The notes beneath the pieces were generated by a model. It was not told the origin of the DNA. It saw nothing but the letters and a program-made list of their open reading frames with translations, and searched no databases. From NCBI GenBank assembly GCA_018696395.1, contig JABHQR010000019.1, forward strand, positions 1 to 43,944: a DNA stretch of 43,944 nucleotides, written 5' to 3'. Position numbers and translations under genes: made by a program. Shown here in pieces: positions 1,895-38,673 of the stretch. Position 1 is the first letter of the stretch, and each line of letters begins with the position of its first letter. This DNA is from an archaeon. Its GTDB lineage: Archaea; Nanobdellota; Nanobdellia; Woesearchaeales; GW2011-AR9.

Positions 1895-4180
1895 ATGTGT
1901 GGAATAGTTGGATTTTTTGGCTTTGATGATGCGTTTGAAAAAACAATTAAAGCCATAAGTATTATGAAAAATCGAGGTAGTGATAGCTTTGGTATTTCTA
2001 ACTTTGATCAAACTTGGTACAATTCTAATTTTGATTCATTTATTAGTTTATTAGAAAATAATTCTTCTAATCATTGTAAAATGAATTTTTTTGGTCATAA
2101 TTTACATGCAGTTGTAAATCATGTGCCTCAACCTTTAATAGGTAATGAAAATAATTTTTTAGTTACAAATTGTGAGATTTATAACTGGAAAGAACTTAAT
2201 GAGAAATATAACTTAAATGCAAAAAATGATGCTGAATTAATATTGTACTTAATTGAAAAGTTTGGAATTGAAAAGATTAAAGAGTTAGATGGTGTGTATG
2301 CTTTTGCTTATTATGGGTCTTTTAAAAATCAAATAGGTGAACTTGGTAATAAATATAAAAAATTGATTCTTGCAAGAGATTTAATTGGTGTAAAACCTCT
2401 TTGGTATTATTTTGATAGAACTAAATTTTCATTTGCTTCTGAAAGAAAATCATTAGTTAATTTGGGTTTAAACAAAAAAAATGTACAAGAACTTAATCCT
2501 CGGCAAATATTAGAATTAACTTGTAAGGATATCTACAGTAATAATGGTGATAAAGATAAAAGTGAAAATAAAAATAATAAATATAATAAAAATGATTTTG
2601 AAAAAATTTCTGACAAAGATTTCCCATTTGAATTAAACTTCAAAACTAGAAATTTCTTTGATATTGAACCTGAACATAATCTTGAAGAAAAAGAATTAAT
2701 GTTAAATGTTCAAAAATTGTTACATCAATCAATCAAAAAAAGAATTCCAGAAAGAAAAATTGGTCTTTTATTTTCTGGGGGAATTGATTCTACTTATATT
2801 GCAAATTATCTTAAAAATGAAAAAGTTGAATTTACTTGTTACACTGCGGCATTTGAAGTTGAAAGTGGAAAAGAACCTGAAGATTTAATTTATGCAAAAA
2901 AAGTAGCTCAACAGTTAGGTCTTAAATTAAAAATTAAGACCATCAAATTGGATGATATACCAGAATATCTAAAAAAGATAGTTCCTTTGATAGAAGACAA
3001 TAATGTTACTAAAACTTCAGTCGCTTTAACTTTCTATCTAGCTTGTGAATTGGCAAAAAATGATAATTGTAAAGTCATTTTTTCAGGTTTAGGAAGTGAA
3101 GAAATATTTGCTGGATATGAAAGACATAAATGTTCTCCAAATATTAACAAAGAGTGTATCTCTGGTTTAATTAAAATGTACGAACGAGACTTATATCGGG
3201 ATGATGTTATAAGTATGGATAATAAATTAGAATTAAGAATTCCTTTCCTTGATAAAGAGTTAGTTGAATTTTGTCTAAAAATTCCAACTAGATTTAAAGT
3301 CGGCGAAGGATTTGGAAAATTAATTTTGAGAAAAATATCTGAACAAGAAGGTATTGATCATGAATTTTCATTTAGGAAAAAGAAAGCTGCACAGTATGGT
3401 TCTAAACTTGATCATGCATTGGGAAGGTTGACAAGGAAAAATGGGTTTAAATTTAAATCTCAATATTTGACCAAATTTTATCCTGGACCTAATTTAAGAT
3501 TAGGTGTTTTATTTTCTTCAGGTAAGGATTCAACGTATGCGGCTTATATCATGAAAAAACAAAATTACGAACTTACTTGCTTAATAACTTTAAAATCAAA
3601 AAATCCTGATTCTTATATGTTTCATACTCCTGCAATTGATTTGGCTAAAGTTCAAGCTGATGCAATGGATGTTCCAATATTGATGCAAGAAACTGATGGG
3701 TTTAAAGAAGAAGAATTGTGTGATCTGGAAAAAGCGTTAATTATAGCCAAAGAAAAGTATTTCATTGAGGGGATAGTTACTGGTGCAGTTTTTTCAACAT
3801 ATCAAAGAAGTAGGATTGAAAAAATTTGTGATCGGTTAGGCTTAAAAATATTCTCTCCATTATGGCACAAACCTCAACAAAAATTAATGGAAGAATTAAT
3901 TTCTCATAATTTTGAAATAATTTTTACTTCAATTGCGGCTTATGGTTTAGACAAAAGTTGGTTAAATAAGGTAATTGATAAAGAAGATTTAATTCGTTTA
4001 AATAATCTTAAAGATAAAATTGGTTCTAACCAAGCTGGAGAAGGGGGGGAGTTTGAAAGTTTAGTTTTAGATTGTCCTTTATTTAAAAAGAAACTTCAAA
4101 TTATTGATTCTGATATTTTACAAGATTCTGAATATTCGGCTAGGTTAATTGTTAAAAAAGCTGAATTAGTTGATAAGTGA
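1895..4180 (+). CDS. Asparagine synthetase (glutamine-hydrolysing) fused to Dph6-type diphthine-ammonia ligase
   Basis: One 761-residue frame carries two enzymes. Residues 1-200 are a class II glutamine amidotransferase (MCGIVGFFG, Cys2 nucleophile). After a Lys/Asn-rich insert near 220-240 comes the AsnB synthetase domain, with PP-loop SGGIDS (294-299), SGLGSEEIFAGY and RIPFLDKELVEF. From about 535 a second ATP-pyrophosphatase domain starts with SSGKDS (541-546) and continues with the Dph6/DUF71 signatures GAVFSTYQRSRIE, PLWHK and GEGGEFESLVLDCPLF. Dph6 amidates diphthine on elongation factor 2 with ATP and ammonium, the last step of diphthamide synthesis. Both halves look intact and there is no internal stop or frameshift. 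The fusion suggests that glutamine-derived ammonia feeds diphthine amidation, Asn synthesis, or both; this is inference. Confidence 0.9.
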   Translation: MCGIVGFFGFDDAFEKTIKAISIMKNRGSDSFGISNFDQTWYNSNFDSFISLLENNSSNHCKMNFFGHNLHAVVNHVPQPLIGNENNFLVTNCEIYNWKELNEKYNLNAKNDAELILYLIEKFGIEKIKELDGVYAFAYYGSFKNQIGELGNKYKKLILARDLIGVKPLWYYFDRTKFSFASERKSLVNLGLNKKNVQELNPRQILELTCKDIYSNNGDKDKSENKNNKYNKNDFEKISDKDFPFELNFKTRNFFDIEPEHNLEEKELMLNVQKLLHQSIKKRIPERKIGLLFSGGIDSTYIANYLKNEKVEFTCYTAAFEVESGKEPEDLIYAKKVAQQLGLKLKIKTIKLDDIPEYLKKIVPLIEDNNVTKTSVALTFYLACELAKNDNCKVIFSGLGSEEIFAGYERHKCSPNINKECISGLIKMYERDLYRDDVISMDNKLELRIPFLDKELVEFCLKIPTRFKVGEGFGKLILRKISEQEGIDHEFSFRKKKAAQYGSKLDHALGRLTRKNGFKFKSQYLTKFYPGPNLRLGVLFSSGKDSTYAAYIMKKQNYELTCLITLKSKNPDSYMFHTPAIDLAKVQADAMDVPILMQETDGFKEEELCDLEKALIIAKEKYFIEGIVTGAVFSTYQRSRIEKICDRLGLKIFSPLWHKPQQKLMEELISHNFEIIFTSIAAYGLDKSWLNKVIDKEDLIRLNNLKDKIGSNQAGEGGEFESLVLDCPLFKKKLQIIDSDILQDSEYSARLIVKKAELVDK

Positions 4181-12040: not shown

Positions 12041-12685
12041 ATGAGAATTGTTTTTAAGGAGGATATGGGATCAGATAAAGCAGTAGCATTATTGTCTGGA
12101 GGGATAGACTCTCCGGTTGCAATAAATTTGATGCAAAATAAAGTTGAAATTATTGCTATGCATTTTCACCAATTACCTTTGACAGATGAAACAGAAGTAG
12201 AAAAAGTTAAATTATTAGCTGATAAATTAGGTTTGAAACAACTTTATTTAGTTCCTTTTGCAGATGTTTTAAAACAATTAGTTGATAAATGTAACCACCG
12301 TGATTATTTTATATTATCAAAAATTTTAATGTTTAGAACAGCTAACTTTCTTGCAAATCAAATTGATGCAAAATTTTTAATTACTGGAGAAAATTTAGCT
12401 CAAGTAAGTAGTCAGACATTAAGCAATCTTTCTGTAATTACATTAAATGTAAATAAATTGATTTTAAGACCTTTACTTATCTTCGATAAGAATGATATTA
12501 TTAATGTTGCAAAAAAAATTGGGACTTATGAGATCTCAAAAGGTCCCGAAATATGTTGTTTGTTAGGCCCTAAATATCCTTCAACTAGGTCTGAACCTGA
12601 TAAAATTGAACTAGAATTAAGTAAAATTGGTGTTGAAGAAATCATTAAGCAAAGTTTAAATAAATCTGAGGTGGTTAATTTCTAA
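12041..12685 (+). CDS. Stand-alone ThiI-type PP-loop protein (tRNA 4-thiouridine synthesis)
   Basis: A 214-residue protein matching only the ATP-pyrophosphatase domain of ThiI: PP-loop LLSGGIDSPVA (SGGIDS 19-24), ITGENLAQVSSQTLSNL, ILRPLLIFDKNDII and IGTYEIS, then a vicinal Cys pair (Cys172-Cys173) in ICCLLGPKYP. ThiI adenylates U8 of tRNA and transfers sulfur. The usual N-terminal NFLD/THUMP tRNA-binding domains and the rhodanese domain are absent, so a separate tRNA-binding partner would be needed. An alternative ATG at 12065 would remove eight residues and fits the family's usual N-terminus better, but its AAGGAGG lies only two bases upstream, which is too close. One base separates the stop from cysS, so the two are surely co-transcribed. 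Confidence 0.85.
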   Translation: MRIVFKEDMGSDKAVALLSGGIDSPVAINLMQNKVEIIAMHFHQLPLTDETEVEKVKLLADKLGLKQLYLVPFADVLKQLVDKCNHRDYFILSKILMFRTANFLANQIDAKFLITGENLAQVSSQTLSNLSVITLNVNKLILRPLLIFDKNDIINVAKKIGTYEISKGPEICCLLGPKYPSTRSEPDKIELELSKIGVEEIIKQSLNKSEVVNF

Positions 12686-12686
12686 A

Positions 12687-14168
12687 ATGGCTAAGAATGA
12701 GATAACTAAACAAGTTAATAAAATTGTTAATGAAATTAACCCAGATATTTTTTTGTTTAATACGTTAACTAGGAAAAAAGAACTGTTTGTTCCTGTGAAA
12801 ATCAATTATAACAAATCTTCTGATCATATTGGCATTTATAGTTGTGGTCCGACAGTGTATAACTATGCTCATGTTGGTAATTTGAGAAGTTATATTTTTT
12901 CTGATATCTTAAAAAGGGTGCTTTATCTTAATAATTTTAAAGTTAAACATGTTATCAATATCACTGATGTTGGTCACTTAACCTCTGATGCAGATGAGGG
13001 AGAAGATAAAATGCTTAAGGGTGCTAAACGTGAGAAAAAAACAGTTTGGCAAGTTGCCGAATTTTATACTTCTGCATTTAAAGAAGATGTTAAAAAACTG
13101 AACATTATAACTCCAGATGTTTGGAGTAAGGCTACTGATAATATCAAAGAACAGATAGAATTAATTAAAACACTTGAACAAAAAGGATATACGTATTTTG
13201 TTGGTGGAAATGTTTATTTTGATACTTCCAAAGTTGATGATTATGGTAAAATTGCTTTGTTAGATCGTGAAGCTGAAACTAAATCTAGGGTTGAAAAAGA
13301 TCAAAATAAAAAGAGTCCCCATGATTTTGTGTTATGGTTTACAAAATCTAAATTTCAAGATCAAGAAATGAAGTGGGACTCTCCTTGGGGTGCAGGGTAT
13401 CCTGGTTGGCATATTGAGTGTTCAGCAATGAGCATGAAACATTTAGGTGAACAATTTGAAGTTCATACAGGTGGGATTGATCATATCTCTGTACATCATC
13501 CTAACGAAATTGCTCAATCTGAATGTGCTATCGGAAAAAAGCCATGGGTGAAGTACTGGTTGCATAATGAATTTTTAGTTTTAGCAGATGGGGATAAAAT
13601 GGCTAAGTCTGGTGAGAATTTTTTAACTCTTTCAGTAGTTGAGAATAAAGGTTATAGTCCTTTAGATTTTCGTTTTTTTAATTTAGGGACTCATTATCGT
13701 AAACAATTAATGTTTAGTTATGAAGCATTAGATTCTGCAAAAAATGCTAGGGTGAAATTAAATGCTAAGGTGTTGGAATTAAAAAATAAACTTGAAGTAG
13801 GCAGTGTTAAAGAAAAATTAGAATCAGAAGAATCAAAGAAGTATTTTAATAATTTTCTTGAAGATGTTAATGATGATTTGAATACTCCCAAGGCATTAGC
13901 AACCTTGTGGGAATTATTGAAAGATTCTAAAATTGAGGATTGTGAAAAATTAAGTTTAGTTATTCTGTTTGATGAAATTTTCGGATTAGGTTTGAGGGAT
14001 CTTGAAAAAGATGACATCCCTATGGAAATAATTCAGTTAGCTGAAAAAAGACTTCGAGCAAGAAAAGATAAAGATTGGGAAATTTCAGATAAATTAAGAG
14101 ATGAAATATTTTCAAAAGGTTTTGAAGTTTCTGATACTGTTGACAGTTTTAAGATTAAAAAGAAATAA
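12687..14168 (+). CDS. cysS: Cysteinyl-tRNA synthetase
   Basis: A 493-residue class I aminoacyl-tRNA synthetase that charges tRNA-Cys. The zinc and catalytic motifs are present: YSCGPTVYNYAHVGN with Cys53 and the HIGH-type AHVGN (61-65), GWHIECSAMS, HTGGIDHISVHHPNEIAQSE, and the KMSKS loop as KMAKS (304-308). The N-terminus carries an extension of about 20-25 residues before the family's usual start. The C-terminal helical tRNA-binding region and LRARKDKDWEISDKLRDE are intact. The gene follows the ThiI-type gene by one base. Confidence 0.97.
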   Translation: MAKNEITKQVNKIVNEINPDIFLFNTLTRKKELFVPVKINYNKSSDHIGIYSCGPTVYNYAHVGNLRSYIFSDILKRVLYLNNFKVKHVINITDVGHLTSDADEGEDKMLKGAKREKKTVWQVAEFYTSAFKEDVKKLNIITPDVWSKATDNIKEQIELIKTLEQKGYTYFVGGNVYFDTSKVDDYGKIALLDREAETKSRVEKDQNKKSPHDFVLWFTKSKFQDQEMKWDSPWGAGYPGWHIECSAMSMKHLGEQFEVHTGGIDHISVHHPNEIAQSECAIGKKPWVKYWLHNEFLVLADGDKMAKSGENFLTLSVVENKGYSPLDFRFFNLGTHYRKQLMFSYEALDSAKNARVKLNAKVLELKNKLEVGSVKEKLESEESKKYFNNFLEDVNDDLNTPKALATLWELLKDSKIEDCEKLSLVILFDEIFGLGLRDLEKDDIPMEIIQLAEKRLRARKDKDWEISDKLRDEIFSKGFEVSDTVDSFKIKKK

Positions 14169-26882: not shown

Positions 26883-28772
26883 ATGTTAGAGAAAACTTTC
26901 TTGGACAAACTTGAAAGTAATTCTTATTCTAAAAAAGATTTGTCAAAAGTAAAGGAAGCGATAGAATATTCTAAACAATTATTATCCTCTAAAAAAAGGT
27001 TAGCAGGAGATTCTGTGTTTGATCATAATTTACGTATGGCAAACTTGTTAATTGATAATGGTGCAGATCCAGAAATTATCATTGCTGCAATTATTTACAA
27101 AATTCCTGATTTTGTTTCTGAAAAAGAAGTTCAAGAAAAGTTTGGTAAAGAAATTATTAACCTGATCAAATCCGCGAAAGATATTACACAACTGAAAACC
27201 AGGAACATGAAACTTAACGCAGAAAATTTGCGTAAAGTACTTCTGGCAACAGTTAACGATGTTAGAGTTATACTGATAAAACTGGTTGATAAATTAGATA
27301 ATCAAAAAGATATCCATTTTTTAGCTAAAGATGAACAGAAAAGAATTTCTCAAGAAATTTTAGATGTCTATGCGCCTTTAGCTTCTCGGTTAGGCGCAGA
27401 AAAAATTAAAGCAGATTTAGAAGATTTAGCTTTTAAAACTATCAATCCAAAAAAGTATCAAGAGATTGTAGGTTTTTTAGAAAGGTCAAGAGAAGATCGG
27501 GTGGATGATGTTAAACAAATTATTAAACAAATTAAATCGTTTAAAGATGTTAACATAATTAAAATCAAAGGTAGGCCTAAACATATTTACAGTATTTACA
27601 AAAAGATAACTAAACGGGGAGTAAAATTAAATGAACAATATGATCTTTTAGGTATCCGGGCGATAGTTTCTAATGAAAAAGAATGTTACCATCTGTTAGG
27701 TTGGTTACACGAAAAATTTGAACCGATAGATGGTAAATTAAAAGATTATATCGCTAATCCTAAACCTAATGGTTACCAATCTATTCATACCTCTTTAATT
27801 GTTGATGGTAAGAAAAAGTTAGAAGTTCAAATTAGAACTCCTGAAATGGACGAAAATGCTGAGGAAGGAGTAGCTGCGCATTGGGGTTATAAAGGTCAAA
27901 AAGCAGATAGGCAATTGGATACTAAACTTGCATGGGTAAAAAACATATTAGAATTACATAAAGATTCTAGTGCAAGAGAATTTATTGAAGATGTTAAGTT
28001 AGATGTGTTTGCTGACCAAATATATTGTTATACTCCCAAAGGTGACATTAAATATATGCCTTTAGGGTCTACTATACTAGATTTTGCTTACATGGTTCAT
28101 GAACAAATAGGGAACCATTGTGTTGGGGCAAGAGTTAATGGGAATTTTGCATCTTTAAGATCAGAACTGAATAAAGGTGATGTTGTTGAAATTTTAACTT
28201 CAAAAAAACAAATTCCAAGACGTAATTGGATTAAATTTGTTAAAACATCGCGAGCAAAAAGTAAAGTTAAGAAAGGTATTAGGTTATACCAAGGATTACC
28301 TGCAATCAGAACTTATACTTTAAGAAAAATAACTAAAGAAGAATATGACTCTTTAACTTATGCTCCAGAATATAAAAATGCCTCTTGTACTTTAGCTAAA
28401 TGTTGTAGGCCTGTTCCAAAAGAAAATTTAGCCGGAATAATAACTAAAAGAAGAATGATTTCTGTGCATAGGGAAGATTGTGACAGGATTGAAAATGAAG
28501 AATCTAGGTGGATAAAAGTTGACTGGAAAGAAACTTTCAATAAAAAAATTAAGTTTTATGTTGTCGCAAAATCTAGGTCTGGGTTATTGGCAGATTTGTT
28601 ACATACCATTGCAACTGTAAGATTTGAAGTTAAGGAGGCTAAAGCTAAACTTGTGGGTAATAATTCTACTGAATGTTCTTTTTTAATAATTCCAAAAGAA
28701 ATTGATGAACTAGAAAAATTAGTAGTTAGGTTAAAGAAAGTAGAAGGAGTTAAAAAAATCTTTTTTGAATAA
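26883..28772 (+). CDS. Long RelA/SpoT homologue: synthetase intact, hydrolase degenerate
   Basis: A 629-residue protein with the full long-RSH order. The N-terminal HD region keeps Arg39, His48, Asp136 and Asn140, but the HD pair itself is Tyr72-Lys73 and the following acidic residues are lost, so (p)ppGpp hydrolysis is unlikely. The synthetase domain is well kept: GRPKHIYSIYKK (230-241), YDLLGIRAIV with Asp254, KLKDYIANPKPNGYQSIHT with Tyr298, and EVQIRT with Glu314. A TGS domain (about 378-440), a Cys/His motif (CTLAKCCRP and VHREDC) and a C-terminal ACT domain (about 555-629) follow. It probably makes (p)ppGpp or a related alarmone under ribosome control. Long RSH proteins are rare in archaea, so lateral gain from bacteria is likely. 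Confidence 0.93.
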   Translation: MLEKTFLDKLESNSYSKKDLSKVKEAIEYSKQLLSSKKRLAGDSVFDHNLRMANLLIDNGADPEIIIAAIIYKIPDFVSEKEVQEKFGKEIINLIKSAKDITQLKTRNMKLNAENLRKVLLATVNDVRVILIKLVDKLDNQKDIHFLAKDEQKRISQEILDVYAPLASRLGAEKIKADLEDLAFKTINPKKYQEIVGFLERSREDRVDDVKQIIKQIKSFKDVNIIKIKGRPKHIYSIYKKITKRGVKLNEQYDLLGIRAIVSNEKECYHLLGWLHEKFEPIDGKLKDYIANPKPNGYQSIHTSLIVDGKKKLEVQIRTPEMDENAEEGVAAHWGYKGQKADRQLDTKLAWVKNILELHKDSSAREFIEDVKLDVFADQIYCYTPKGDIKYMPLGSTILDFAYMVHEQIGNHCVGARVNGNFASLRSELNKGDVVEILTSKKQIPRRNWIKFVKTSRAKSKVKKGIRLYQGLPAIRTYTLRKITKEEYDSLTYAPEYKNASCTLAKCCRPVPKENLAGIITKRRMISVHREDCDRIENEESRWIKVDWKETFNKKIKFYVVAKSRSGLLADLLHTIATVRFEVKEAKAKLVGNNSTECSFLIIPKEIDELEKLVVRLKKVEGVKKIFFE

Positions 28773-31725: not shown

Positions 31726-31764
31726 GTGTTGTTAATAGAATTAATGATTTAAATTATTTATGGA

Positions 31765-32874
31765 TTAAGAAATTATGATCGGTTCATAACCACCAGAAGT
31801 ATATGAAACTTCGTCAATGTAAATTATTGGGTTTTCATTAGATTCTATTGAAAATTCTCTATCTAATAAGTCTTCATTATATCTTTCATAAGTAATATTA
31901 GATAAAATTAATTCTTCATTTAAGTAAACTGAAATCTGTTCTTCTATCTTTATTTTTATTGTGTGCCAAACGCCTGAGTTTAAATCTAAGCTTTGGTAAC
32001 CTAAAACAGTATATGTCTCACTTTCATAATTAGTAATTTCAATATGTTCATTTCCAAATTCTAAGAAATCTCTTTTATCGCTTGAGTAATCATTGTTAAA
32101 ATTAATCATTACTCCTCCTTGTTCAATATTAACTTTAAATTCGATAAAACTTAAATTATAAATGTCATAATTAAACTTTAACCAATCATTACCATTGTTC
32201 TTTAAATAATAATTTTCATTATCATTAATCAAACTCCAATCTGTATTACTTCTAGCTCTCCAGTAATTTTCCCAATCTTCTTCGGTAAGACTAGATAATG
32301 TTTCTTCTTGGATCGTGTGACAGGTATTGTGGATGCATTTATTCGGTTCACAATCAGTATCAGTTGAACAAACAACTCTATACTCTTGAGTAATTGGGAC
32401 ACTTTCAGTTAGTATTACTTGTGAGACACTATTTAATGTTCCAAATTGATTATCATAAAAAGAATATCCTACAACGCCTAAACTTATTATTAACATAATA
32501 ATGATCATCCAAAACCAATATCTGTCTGTTATTTTATCTTTATCATGACTGGCCCATTTACCAAAAAACCCACCAATAAAAAATACTATTGAAGTCATTA
32601 TTACTAAAAATGCAGCAGATTCTAAATTAGAATTTAAGTCTGAAGTAATTATCATTGAAACAAATACTATCATAGCAATAATTGATCCGGTTTTGAAATT
32701 AAGTTCATCTGGAAATTCATGATGTAAAAGTATTATTGATAAGCTTATAATTACAAATAGGAATACAAATATTAAGAAGTCATTTGATGTGAACATACTT
32801 ACTAGGAAAAAGGAAATAAATGATAAAATAGCTGTGCCAACTAACCAACTAAGTACATCACCTCTTAATTTCAT
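31765..32874 (-). CDS. Membrane protein with Cys-rich linker and LamG/DUF1080-like C-terminal domain
   Basis: A 369-residue protein. The first 140 residues hold about five membrane segments (near 10-27, 33-50, 64-77, 85-104 and 121-139). A short Cys-rich linker (CSTDTDCEPNKC) resembles small disulfide knots found in DPANN surface proteins. Residues from about 205 form a beta-rich domain (NDWLKFNYDIYNLSFIEFKV, DLNSGVWHTIKIKIEEQISV, YLNEELI) typical of concanavalin-like LamG or DUF1080 folds, which often bind sugars. Predicted topology puts it outside the cell. Function unknown; a glycan-binding envelope protein is a guess. Confidence 0.72.
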   Translation of the reverse strand: MKLRGDVLSWLVGTAILSFISFFLVSMFTSNDFLIFVFLFVIISLSIILLHHEFPDELNFKTGSIIAMIVFVSMIITSDLNSNLESAAFLVIMTSIVFFIGGFFGKWASHDKDKITDRYWFWMIIIMLIISLGVVGYSFYDNQFGTLNSVSQVILTESVPITQEYRVVCSTDTDCEPNKCIHNTCHTIQEETLSSLTEEDWENYWRARSNTDWSLINDNENYYLKNNGNDWLKFNYDIYNLSFIEFKVNIEQGGVMINFNNDYSSDKRDFLEFGNEHIEITNYESETYTVLGYQSLDLNSGVWHTIKIKIEEQISVYLNEELILSNITYERYNEDLLDREFSIESNENPIIYIDEVSYTSGGYEPIIIS

Positions 32875-32934
32875 GGAGTAAATGATTATTTCAGTTTATT
32901 TAAAATTAACTTTTTAATTTTGGCAAGAGTTAAT

Positions 32935-33264
32935 TTAAGCAGAATTTCCATTCCACTTGTGCCATCCTTTACCTTTAGAATCATAACTTCCATCTTGTTT
33001 TTTTCTTTTTGGAAATAAACTGCCCCCTATCTTGTGTTGTCCAAAAGCAAGTTTTGCAGTACAATCTTTGCATCTAATCTCATAATAGTCATTACTATCA
33101 ACAGTTCGAACAATCATTTGGAGATTGTCGCTTTCACATAATCCACAAGCTTCTTGGTCAAAGACTTCTTGGAATTCAGCTAAATGCTTGAAAGCATCTT
33201 TAATAGAATCGTTTTCAATCTCAATAGATATCCTTTGGTTTTTTGTAGTGTATTTTATTTTCAT
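32935..33264 (-). CDS. Phage-type zinc-ribbon protein, function unknown
   Basis: A 109-residue protein with two Cys pairs (Cys40-X2-Cys43 and Cys65-X2-Cys68) that form a likely zinc ribbon, followed by LAFGQHKIGGSLFPKRK and the Gly/Trp-rich end GKGWHKWNG. The FGQHK..G.LFPKRK block is one I associate with small proteins of phages and integrated elements, often near single-strand annealing genes; this is recall, not a search. It is transcribed from a promoter with a tandem CCACTGG motif that is shared with the promoter region at 39168-39207. Confidence 0.75.
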   Translation of the reverse strand: MKIKYTTKNQRISIEIENDSIKDAFKHLAEFQEVFDQEACGLCESDNLQMIVRTVDSNDYYEIRCKDCTAKLAFGQHKIGGSLFPKRKKQDGSYDSKGKGWHKWNGNSA

Positions 33265-33285
33265 AAAAATCAGTTTAAGAAAATT

Positions 33286-33297
33286 GATTTAAATATC
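33286..33297 (-). promoter_or_regulatory. TATA box of the zinc-ribbon gene
   Basis: On the minus strand GATATTTAAATC is centred about 28 bases before the ATG at 33264, predicting a nearly leaderless transcript. Confidence 0.55.
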
Positions 33298-33310
33298 TTT
33301 TGTGAACCTG

Positions 33311-33327
33311 ACCAGTGTGACCAGTGG
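33311..33327 (-). promoter_or_regulatory. Tandem 9-bp motif, copy A (regulator site candidate)
   Basis: On the minus strand the sequence is CCACTGGTCACACTGGT, two CACTGG cores with a 9-base period, ending 14 bases before the TATA box. A second copy with the same period and the same distance to its TATA box is at 39191-39207. Confidence 0.6.
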
Positions 33328-33384
33328 CTTATTGTAATGATTTTTGTGAGTCTTTGATTTGCTGTTGAAAAGTGTTTTTTAATC

Positions 33385-33585
33385 TTAATTATCTAAATAC
33401 TGCTCTAAGAAACTGACATAATGACCCCTCACCTTACAGGTGTTTCCTTTATCTTCTGTTGGTACAGCTATGGTACAATTTGTAATCTCTCTTATTGCTT
33501 TTGCCCAACCAAAAATTGGAAAAAATGCATTTTCATTAGATCCAGAGTATTTTTCTTTAATTAATGGGGGGACTTCTGTTCCCAT
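33385..33585 (-). CDS. Small hypothetical protein (66 residues)
   Basis: A 66-residue frame with balanced composition (two Cys, several Pro and aromatic residues; for example PIFGWAKAIREITNC). No family is recognised and no ribosome site is seen. It lies 15 bases downstream of another tiny frame on the same strand and 120 bases upstream of the zinc-ribbon gene, so the three may belong to one small element. It could be a chance frame. Confidence 0.4.
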   Translation of the reverse strand: MGTEVPPLIKEKYSGSNENAFFPIFGWAKAIREITNCTIAVPTEDKGNTCKVRGHYVSFLEQYLDN

Positions 33586-33600
33586 TTTTACTATACTTTT

Positions 33601-33717
33601 TTAAGCTTGACAATCAATATATCTGTTAGGGTCTGAACAATATTTCTGTTTATGACAATGTTGTTTCCATAAATCTACATAAATTTCAAATTCTTCTTTA
33701 ATTATATATTCTACCAT
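33601..33717 (-). CDS. Very small Cys/His-containing ORF (38 residues)
   Basis: A 38-codon frame starting MVEYIIKEEFEIYVDLW and ending with a cluster of three Cys and two His (KQHCHKQKYCSDP and YIDCQA). The spacing could bind a metal. A TATA-like stretch about 25-30 bases upstream on the minus strand would give a leaderless transcript. It shares the divergent region with the NSUN methyltransferase gene. Too short to call firmly. Confidence 0.35.
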   Translation of the reverse strand: MVEYIIKEEFEIYVDLWKQHCHKQKYCSDPNRYIDCQA

Positions 33718-33786
33718 TACGTTTGTTAAGTTTATTTGCTTTATTATAATTTCTATGTTTGTTAATAATGTTCATTTATATCTTTA

Positions 33787-33801
33787 CATCCAAAAATTAT
33801 A
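33787..33801 (+). promoter_or_regulatory. TATA box of the NSUN methyltransferase gene
   Basis: AAAAATTATATAAGC ends about 29 bases before the ATG at 33830, as expected for a short leader. Confidence 0.45.
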
Positions 33802-33829
33802 TAAGCAGTCCAGAAAATAATAACTTATC

Positions 33830-34795
33830 ATGGTTGAACACAAACTTACAGCAATTCCAAACACTGAAAATGTTGAAATTAAGCAAGGTTTTATTGATAG
33901 ATACTCTAAACTTACTGATTGGGAAGAGTTCAAGAAATATTGTTTATGTTTTTTGAGACGTTCAATTAGGGTTAACACTCTGAAAGCAGATATTGAAGAA
34001 ACAAGAAAAAGTATTGAAAGTAAAGGTTGGAAATTAGAACCGATACCTTGGTGTAAAGGTGGTTTTTTTATATCACATCCTGATAGAAAAGATGTGGGTA
34101 ATTTATGGGAACATCATATCGGTAAAATTTATGTTCAGGAATCTGTTAGTATGTTACCTCCTTTAGCTCTTGATCCAAAACCAGGAGATATTGTTCTTGA
34201 TATGTGTGCTGCTCCAGGAAGTAAAACTACTCAAATGGCTGCAATGATGAAAAATCAAGGGTTATTAATAGCTAATGATTACAAAGGTATGCGGATTCAA
34301 TCTTTAGGAATTAATTTACAACGTAGTGCGGCAAGTAATACTATTGTAACTTTGATGTCTGGTACAAGATACAAAGATTTTCAGTTTGACAAAATTTTGG
34401 TAGATGCACCCTGTTCAGGAACGGGTACAATTAGAAAAAGTTTAAAAACTTTAAGAATCTGGAACCCATCAATGTTAAGGAAAATTTCTAATGAACAGTT
34501 TAGACTTGCAGAGAATGCATTCTTAAATTTAAAACCCGGTGGTGTAATGGTATATTCTACTTGTTCACTTGAACCAGAAGAAAATGAAGCAGTAGTTACT
34601 CGAATACTTAACAGGTTTGATAATGCTAAAGTTGAAAAAGTTAATTTCCCTGGGTTGAAAATTGGAACTTCTGTAATGGAATTCGAAGGTGTTAAATATC
34701 ATGAAGAAGTGAAAGATTCAGTAAGAATTTGGCCACAAGATAATGATACTGAAGGTTTCTTTGTTTGCAGGATAAAGAAACTATTGGATGAATAA
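33830..34795 (+). CDS. NSUN/RsmB-family RNA m5C methyltransferase
   Basis: A 321-residue SAM-dependent cytosine-C5 methyltransferase. SAM-binding motif LDMCAAPGSKTTQ (123-135) is followed by the two family Cys residues: Cys195 in DAPCSGTG and Cys245 in YSTCSLEPEENE, the second being the usual nucleophile. The N-terminal region (SIRVNTLK) is the RNA-binding part of the family. The size and lack of a PUA domain fit archaeal Trm4-like enzymes that act on tRNA, but an rRNA target cannot be excluded. Confidence 0.92.
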   Translation: MVEHKLTAIPNTENVEIKQGFIDRYSKLTDWEEFKKYCLCFLRRSIRVNTLKADIEETRKSIESKGWKLEPIPWCKGGFFISHPDRKDVGNLWEHHIGKIYVQESVSMLPPLALDPKPGDIVLDMCAAPGSKTTQMAAMMKNQGLLIANDYKGMRIQSLGINLQRSAASNTIVTLMSGTRYKDFQFDKILVDAPCSGTGTIRKSLKTLRIWNPSMLRKISNEQFRLAENAFLNLKPGGVMVYSTCSLEPEENEAVVTRILNRFDNAKVEKVNFPGLKIGTSVMEFEGVKYHEEVKDSVRIWPQDNDTEGFFVCRIKKLLDE

Positions 34796-38017: not shown

Positions 38018-38587
38018 TTACCTGTCTACTACTTTGTCATGTACTAAATCAATTATTTTAGATGGTTTGTTACGTTTTTCTCCTTCATAAATCAAGAAAT
38101 TTACTGAGTTTTTAATACTTTGATCTAAATTGTCCAAATTTGTCATAAAACTTTCTTTAGATTTATTTACTGATGTTGTAATGATTGGAATTCCAATTTC
38201 TTCAAATAATTTATTTAATCTATGTTTAGGTAATCTAATACCTAAACTGCCGTCTTTTGAATTTACTTCAGTTGATACAGAATCTTTATTTTTTATTTTC
38301 ATTACAATTGTATAAGGGCCAGGTAATAAACTTAAATATTCTTTTTCATCTTTTTCACTGAGTTCACAATTCTCTTTAATCCATTCAATTGATGGTGCCC
38401 AAATAGAAAAAGGCATTTCTGGTCTATTTTTTATTTCTCTAATCTTTTTAATAGAATTGTCGTTAGTGGCATCACAACCAATTCCATAAATTGTGTCAGT
38501 AGGGTAAATAAAAATTGCACCTTCTTTGATTTTACGTATGATCTCTCTCTTCCTCATTAAGAGCTCTCTTTCAGTTAAAATTTCCAT
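38018..38587 (-). CDS. Threonylcarbamoyl-AMP synthase (Sua5/YrdC/YwlC)
   Basis: A 189-residue YrdC-domain protein that makes threonylcarbamoyl-AMP from Thr, bicarbonate and ATP for the t6A37 modification of ANN-decoding tRNAs. Motifs: IFIYPTDTIYGIGCDA, KKIREIKNRPEMPFSIW, LLPGPYTIVMK, LGIRLPKH and the ITTSVNKSKE loop. It lacks the Sua5 C-terminal domain, as in single-domain YrdC. Met11 is a possible alternative start. Confidence 0.93.
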   Translation of the reverse strand: MEILTERELLMRKREIIRKIKEGAIFIYPTDTIYGIGCDATNDNSIKKIREIKNRPEMPFSIWAPSIEWIKENCELSEKDEKEYLSLLPGPYTIVMKIKNKDSVSTEVNSKDGSLGIRLPKHRLNKLFEEIGIPIITTSVNKSKESFMTNLDNLDQSIKNSVNFLIYEGEKRNKPSKIIDLVHDKVVDR

Positions 38588-38673
38588 GATTTGTTAAGCT
38601 TTCTTAACTTTATTTAAAAGAATTATGTATTTTATGTTTATTTTTGAATATTATTAACGTAAGAATAAAAAAT

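Follow-up and report, generated by a model that had tools for sequence, protein, structure and literature searches.

Fusion of a glutaminase and an asparagine synthetase-like domain to the predicted diphthine-ammonia ligase of a DPANN archaeon

A single open reading frame (ORF) of a DPANN archaeon joins a class-II glutamine amidotransferase domain (GAT), an asparagine synthetase-like PP-loop domain (MID) and a diphthine-ammonia ligase domain (Dph6); it lies in a contig of 43,944 nucleotides, which was analysed at its full length and is referred to below as the window. The reading that we prefer, with a probability of about 0.55, is that this protein combines Dph6 with a glutamine-fed PP-loop ligase, in which MID would be an AMP-forming ligase other than a canonical asparagine synthetase, acting in the step or the pathway of Dph6. 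The glutaminase is optional: it was lost repeatedly, with the linkage between MID and Dph6 kept.

Organization of the fusion protein

The first-pass annotation of the window had described one uninterrupted frame with fused domains at 1895-4180, and this frame was recovered exactly; Cys2, both PP-loops and the EGGEFESLVLD stretch likewise lie where that annotation had placed them. The features are as follows (window coordinates).

1895..4180, plus strand: three-domain fusion ORF (GAT, MID and Dph6), complete, 761 aa, ATG start, 0 internal stops
1895..2527, plus strand: GAT, aa 1-211 (end approximate), Cys2 at 1898-1900; GATase_7, 3e-18
2696..3472, plus strand: MID, about aa 268-526, AAQYGS motif near the end; Asn_synthase, 8e-46
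2774..2791, plus strand: PP-loop SGGIDS of MID, aa 294-299
3089..3091, plus strand: Leu399 of MID, at the position of Glu-364 of human asparagine synthetase (ASNS)
3230..3232, plus strand: Glu446 of MID, equivalent to human ASNS Glu-414 next to the glutamine pocket (role according to PMC6748925)
3494..4177, plus strand: Dph6, aa 534-761; TIGR03679, 256 bits
3515..3532, plus strand: PP-loop SSGKDS of Dph6, aa 541-546, aligned with SGGKDS of PF0828
4040..4057, plus strand: EGGEFE of Dph6, aa 716-721, equivalents of PF0828 Glu183, Glu186 and Glu188 (roles proposed in PMC3541065)

Pfam profiles identified all three domains (GATase_7, 3e-18; Asn_synthase, 8e-46; Diphthami_syn_2, 5e-62), and among the NCBIfam profiles, TIGR03679 (Dph6) scored 256.5 bits (cut-off 197.3) and TIGR01536 (asparagine synthetase) 276 bits, barely over its cut-off of 267.1. 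The full-length fusion is present as a single ORF in 31 other assemblies, and the 30 orthologues retained for alignment A1 share 44-61% identity with the window protein. An AlphaFold2 model of the window protein, built with 50 aligned relatives, had a mean pLDDT of 92 and a pTM of 0.89. The GAT and MID parts of the model matched Escherichia coli AsnB (1ct9) with a Z score of 36.7 over 444 residues at 2.4 A; VIA matches to AsnB and ASNS had Z scores of 34-37 (35.8 for human ASNS, 6gq3), with nothing nearer among the structure matches listed. The Dph6 part matched ATP-bound PF0828 (VIA Z 33.3, 220 residues, 1.4 A).

Elsewhere in the window (26883-28772, plus strand), this DPANN archaeon encodes a full-length RelA/SpoT-type protein with HD, synthetase, TGS and ACT domains; (p)ppGpp enzymes of this type are mainly bacterial.

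The Dph6 domain and the diphthamide pathway

The host genome (1.38 Mb, 99% complete) has relatives that are labelled Woesearchaeota or Nanoarchaeota in public records. In a profile search of this genome, the window fusion was the sole match to PF01902. Its Dph6 domain shares about 40% identity with PH1257 and PF0828, and alignment with these two proteins shows the S-x-GKDS PP-loop and the SY, YQ and EGGEFE residues in place; all nine PF0828 residues proposed to be functional (PMC3541065) are identical. The rest of the pathway is encoded in the same genome. There is one Dph5, and Dph2 is split into two separate genes on opposite strands, about 11.5 kb apart, on the same contig as the EF2 gene (31753-33912).

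G000:C9 about 38377-38625 (L047:878-1126), minus strand: N-terminal part of Dph2, 82 aa, with the CYGACD motif
G000:C9 50092-50769 (L022:1504-2181), plus strand: C-terminal part of Dph2, 225 aa, with the SACPRI motif

The EF2 loop reads LHEDAIHRGPAQ (HEDAIHRG), and the target histidine is therefore present. Judging from its family and intact site, the window protein is the predicted diphthine-ammonia ligase of this cell.

Spread of the fusion and repeated loss of the glutaminase

An even sample of the phylum, 147 genomes, was scored for MID and Dph6. At the threshold used, both were detected in 117 genomes, Dph6 without MID in 24, MID without Dph6 in two and neither in four. The co-occurrence is statistically weak (Fisher p 0.012, among related genomes), and we therefore do not lean on it. 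The triple fusion is found in 52 genomes of the sample; MID-Dph6 fusions in ORFs of up to 532 aa in 10; MID and Dph6 as separate but closely neighbouring genes in five; a separate MID without glutaminase in 43; a separate glutaminase-MID protein in six; and a separate MID of intermediate length in one. Named records add triple fusions from Diapherotrites, Altiarchaeota, Nanohaloarchaea, Methanosarcinaceae and Methanophagales. The domain order that the first-pass annotation suggested looking for in DPANN genomes is thus widespread there, as well as in Methanosarcinaceae.

Several lineages have a dead glutaminase or none at all. The fusion of Methanohalophilus sp. RSK (L139), which is the sole Dph6 of that genome, and the similar L225 and L227-L230 start with MQKLIS and have lost the glutaminase Cys and the other GAT motifs, with the MID and Dph6 motifs intact; the Cys is likewise missing from L231-L233 and L099. 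A group of operons (L241-L245, L248 and L249) has the gene for a Cys-less glutaminase-MID protein directly next to dph6. Two-domain MID-Dph6 fusions without any glutaminase were confirmed in eight genomes (L251, L252 and L254-L259), with two further ones in L128 and L121. Three loci were left out as glutaminase losses, namely L044 and L253, where a frameshift or split puts GAT in an ORF of its own upstream, and L049, with an extended N-terminus. A quick tree of 135 MIDs requires no fewer than 11 changes of the Cys state; well-supported branches alone force five changes for the Cys-less fused forms and four for the GAT-less fused forms. Because of the few frameshift and annotation cases and the quick tree, we speak of several independent losses and give no exact number.

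Probable coupling of the glutaminase to MID

In ASNS, Glu-414 of the C-terminal domain is no more than 5 A from the glutamine pocket (PMC6748925). We compared the equivalent position, Glu446 of the window protein, in 131 MIDs for which the state of the glutaminase is known (90 Cys-bearing, 11 Cys-less and 30 GAT-less). Glu occupies it in 87 of the 90 Cys-bearing forms, in 2/11 Cys-less and 7/30 GAT-less forms, hence in nine of the 41 with a lost or dead glutaminase, a contrast that is inflated by phylogenetic relatedness; the underlying losses sit on several branches. Since Glu446 is kept with an intact Cys and is mostly gone otherwise, a living glutaminase probably feeds MID, and this sequence pattern would be expected from selection for glutaminase-to-MID coupling.

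These observations bear on the proposal, made both in a 2012 paper (PMC3541065) and in the first-pass annotation, that the glutaminase feeds the PP-loop of Dph6, alone or besides MID, so that amidation of EF2 becomes glutamine-dependent. The window protein does retain Cys2 and most class-II GAT residues, the model of its three domains is compact and confident, and the three-domain fusion extends across DPANN and Methanosarcinaceae. However, several losses of the glutaminase left MID and Dph6 fused or adjacent, and therefore glutamine-derived ammonia cannot explain the fusion in general, nor does a glutamine-dependent terminal step hold as a general rule. The conserved coupling residue, moreover, lies between GAT and MID, not Dph6; homology to AsnB would send ammonia first to the middle PP-loop; and Arg is absent at the position of the glutamine-binding Arg-48 of ASNS. 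Stand-alone Dph6 uses free ammonium. We consider ammonia sharing doubtful as an explanation of the fusion; direct transfer of ammonia to Dph6 may occur.

The middle domain is not a canonical asparagine synthetase

The first-pass annotation had read the protein as a complete AsnB joined to a complete Dph6. The Dph6 part is complete indeed; the AsnB part is not, and we reject that reading of the middle domain. In HMMER alignments with 1ct9, 6gq3, 8sue and 9b6c, Leu399 occupies the position of the first glutamate of the SGEGSDE motif, Glu-364 in human ASNS, where the substitutions E364A and E364Q abolish activity with aspartate, ATP and ammonium (PMC6748925). At this position the MIDs have Leu, Ser, Thr, Ala, Met, Asn, Ile or Phe; none of the 131 has Glu. 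The SGGxDS PP-loop expected of the TIGR01536 family is present (SGGIDS), and in the ATP site Ser294, Gly296, Asp298, Ser299, Arg435, Lys496 and Gly502 are invariant in all 131 MIDs, including the 30 without a glutaminase in the ORF; Gly295 is replaced with Ala in three Cys-less operon forms (SAG for SGG). Across 30 fused and stand-alone forms, 36 alignment columns are invariant. At the residue level, MID is thus not a canonical asparagine synthetase and probably does not make asparagine; a change at one position does not prove that asparagine synthesis was lost. With its ATP-site residues invariant, MID very probably acts as an ATP enzyme, using an acceptor other than that of asparagine synthetase.

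Some diverged forms were seen in Methanosarcinaceae. The PP-loop of the Cys-less operon forms L241-L243, L245, L248 and L249 is mostly FSAGIDS rather than FSGGIDS. In L236-L240, dph6 is a gene of its own, and far from it lies a gene for a diverged GAT-MID protein (about 505-557 aa), with motifs of the LTGQGADE type and KKAIQYGT or KKAMQYGT; here too the synthetase Glu is missing. Methanosarcina acetivorans, used as a control genome, has Dph6, and its relatives encode Dph6 and a diverged GAT-MID protein in separate genes.

A true asparagine synthetase fused to Dph6, which would link two unrelated activities or couple EF2 modification to asparagine status, is accordingly unlikely. Essential Glu-364 is Leu here and Glu never occurs in the family, several fusion-bearing relatives have a second AsnB-like protein of 545-585 aa, and MID forms without GAT remain with Dph6. 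Such an enzyme would fit the TIGR01536 score just over the cut-off and the gene content of the host: no second asparagine synthetase was found in the genome, where the only other, weak Asn_synthase match (12041-12685) was rejected as a candidate asnB because it is a ThiI protein, and a search with GatB_N (the GatB/GatE domain) recovered only GatE of the Glu-tRNA(Gln) enzyme. Separate intact copies of asnB or dph6, which the first-pass annotation had proposed to look for, are thus missing from this genome. The stand-alone ThiI-type PP-loop gene (214 aa) is directly followed by a cysteinyl-tRNA synthetase-like gene (12041-14168, plus strand).

Residues of the glutaminase domain

The GAT domain has Cys directly after the initiator Met (MCGI), and Cys2, Arg27, Gly28, Asn92, Cys93 and Glu94 are invariant in 18 aligned forms. 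Asn-74, Glu-76 and Asp-96 of ASNS correspond to Asn92, Glu94 and Asp112. In the sequence alignment, the ASNS residue that binds the carboxylate of glutamine, Arg-48, is replaced with Leu70, which is invariant within a GHxLHxxV stretch, and Gly-75 of the oxyanion region is replaced with Cys93. The intact Cys2 and Dph6 motifs reported in the first-pass annotation are borne out, and the residue that would couple GAT to the synthetase-like domain is conserved in Cys-bearing forms.

The replacements at Arg-48 and Gly-75 would be expected if GAT took something other than free glutamine as its substrate, or had no substrate, and served as a structural or regulatory part. We regard this as unlikely: Cys2, Arg27-Gly28, Asn92, Glu94 and Asp112 have been conserved, and Glu446 varies together with Cys2, both as in a working glutaminase, and the role of the Arg could fall to another residue.

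Finally, an assembly or frame artefact, which the first-pass annotation had named as a possible refutation, can be set aside together with a chance fusion, given the 31 orthologous full-length ORFs in independent assemblies and nothing found in its favour.

Proposed role of the fusion

In the reading that we prefer, a glutamine-fed PP-loop ligase joined to Dph6, the C-terminal third of the protein would adenylate diphthine on EF2 and then amidate it, as its family and intact site suggest, and the N-terminal two thirds would form the ligase. GAT would free ammonia for MID, consistent with AsnB homology and with the co-conservation of Cys2 and Glu446, and MID would be an AMP-forming ATP enzyme other than canonical asparagine synthetase. 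We assign MID to the step or pathway of Dph6, since it is MID, rather than the glutaminase, that constantly stays linked to Dph6 in fusions and gene neighbourhoods; the linkage is observed, and the shared pathway is what it suggests. MID was absent, at the threshold used, from 24 of the 141 Dph6-bearing genomes and is therefore not essential for diphthamide everywhere; in about 50 genomes it is unlinked to Dph6.

More tentatively, MID could be a separate amidoligase or an ammonia-relay ATPase of diphthamide biosynthesis in many archaea, with or without a glutaminase of its own, perhaps akin to ASNSD1/YML096W, and thus an unrecognised component of the last step. The natural variants separate the domains, and it is the ligase domain, not the glutaminase, that stays with Dph6; Leu399 and Glu446 make the question of the role of MID testable. 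If MID works in EF2 modification, the three-enzyme archaeal pathway (Dph2, Dph5 and Dph6) misses a component.

Comparison with known systems

The GAT and MID parts share with AsnB (1ct9) and human ASNS (6gq3) the architecture of a GAT followed by a PP-loop domain, the fold, the PP-loop and the coupling Glu-414, but differ in having Leu for Glu-364, Leu for Arg-48, Cys for Gly-75 and the C-terminal AAQYGS. The archaeal Dph6 proteins PH1257 (PDB 2d13) and PF0828 (PDB 3rk1) resemble the Dph6 domain in sequence (about 40% identity), in the nine functional residues and in fold (Z 32-33); unlike the fused window domain, they are single-domain proteins that take ammonia from outside. Eukaryotic ASNSD1 (yeast YML096W) may resemble MID in lacking Glu in the corresponding motif and in a C-terminal motif like QFGS; it is not known to be fused to Dph6. 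A literature search for ASNSD1 together with diphthamide found no paper, and the function of ASNSD1 is only 'predicted by similarity' (PMC9140057).

The closest precedent is the fusion of GAT-II, Asn_Synthase_B_C and DUF71 that De Crecy-Lagard and colleagues (2012, PMC3541065) described in Methanohalophilus mahii, Methanosalsum zhilinae and 'Ca. Nanosalinarum', with the same three domains in the same order as in the window protein. Both the fusion, including a DPANN example, and the idea of ammonia sharing were thus published in 2012, in the form that the glutaminase supplies both PP-loop domains with ammonia. L. Aravind, in the review printed with that paper, raised the questions of which PP-loop takes the ammonia and what role the asparagine synthetase-like domain has; no later answer to the question on this domain was found in the literature searched. 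The glutaminase Cys and motifs, intact in the window protein, are gone in Methanohalophilus sp. RSK and similar forms, and therefore the 2012 ammonia proposal cannot hold there. What is added here is the non-canonical nature of MID, the co-conservation of Glu446 with Cys2 and the repeated loss of the glutaminase, which includes Methanohalophilus.
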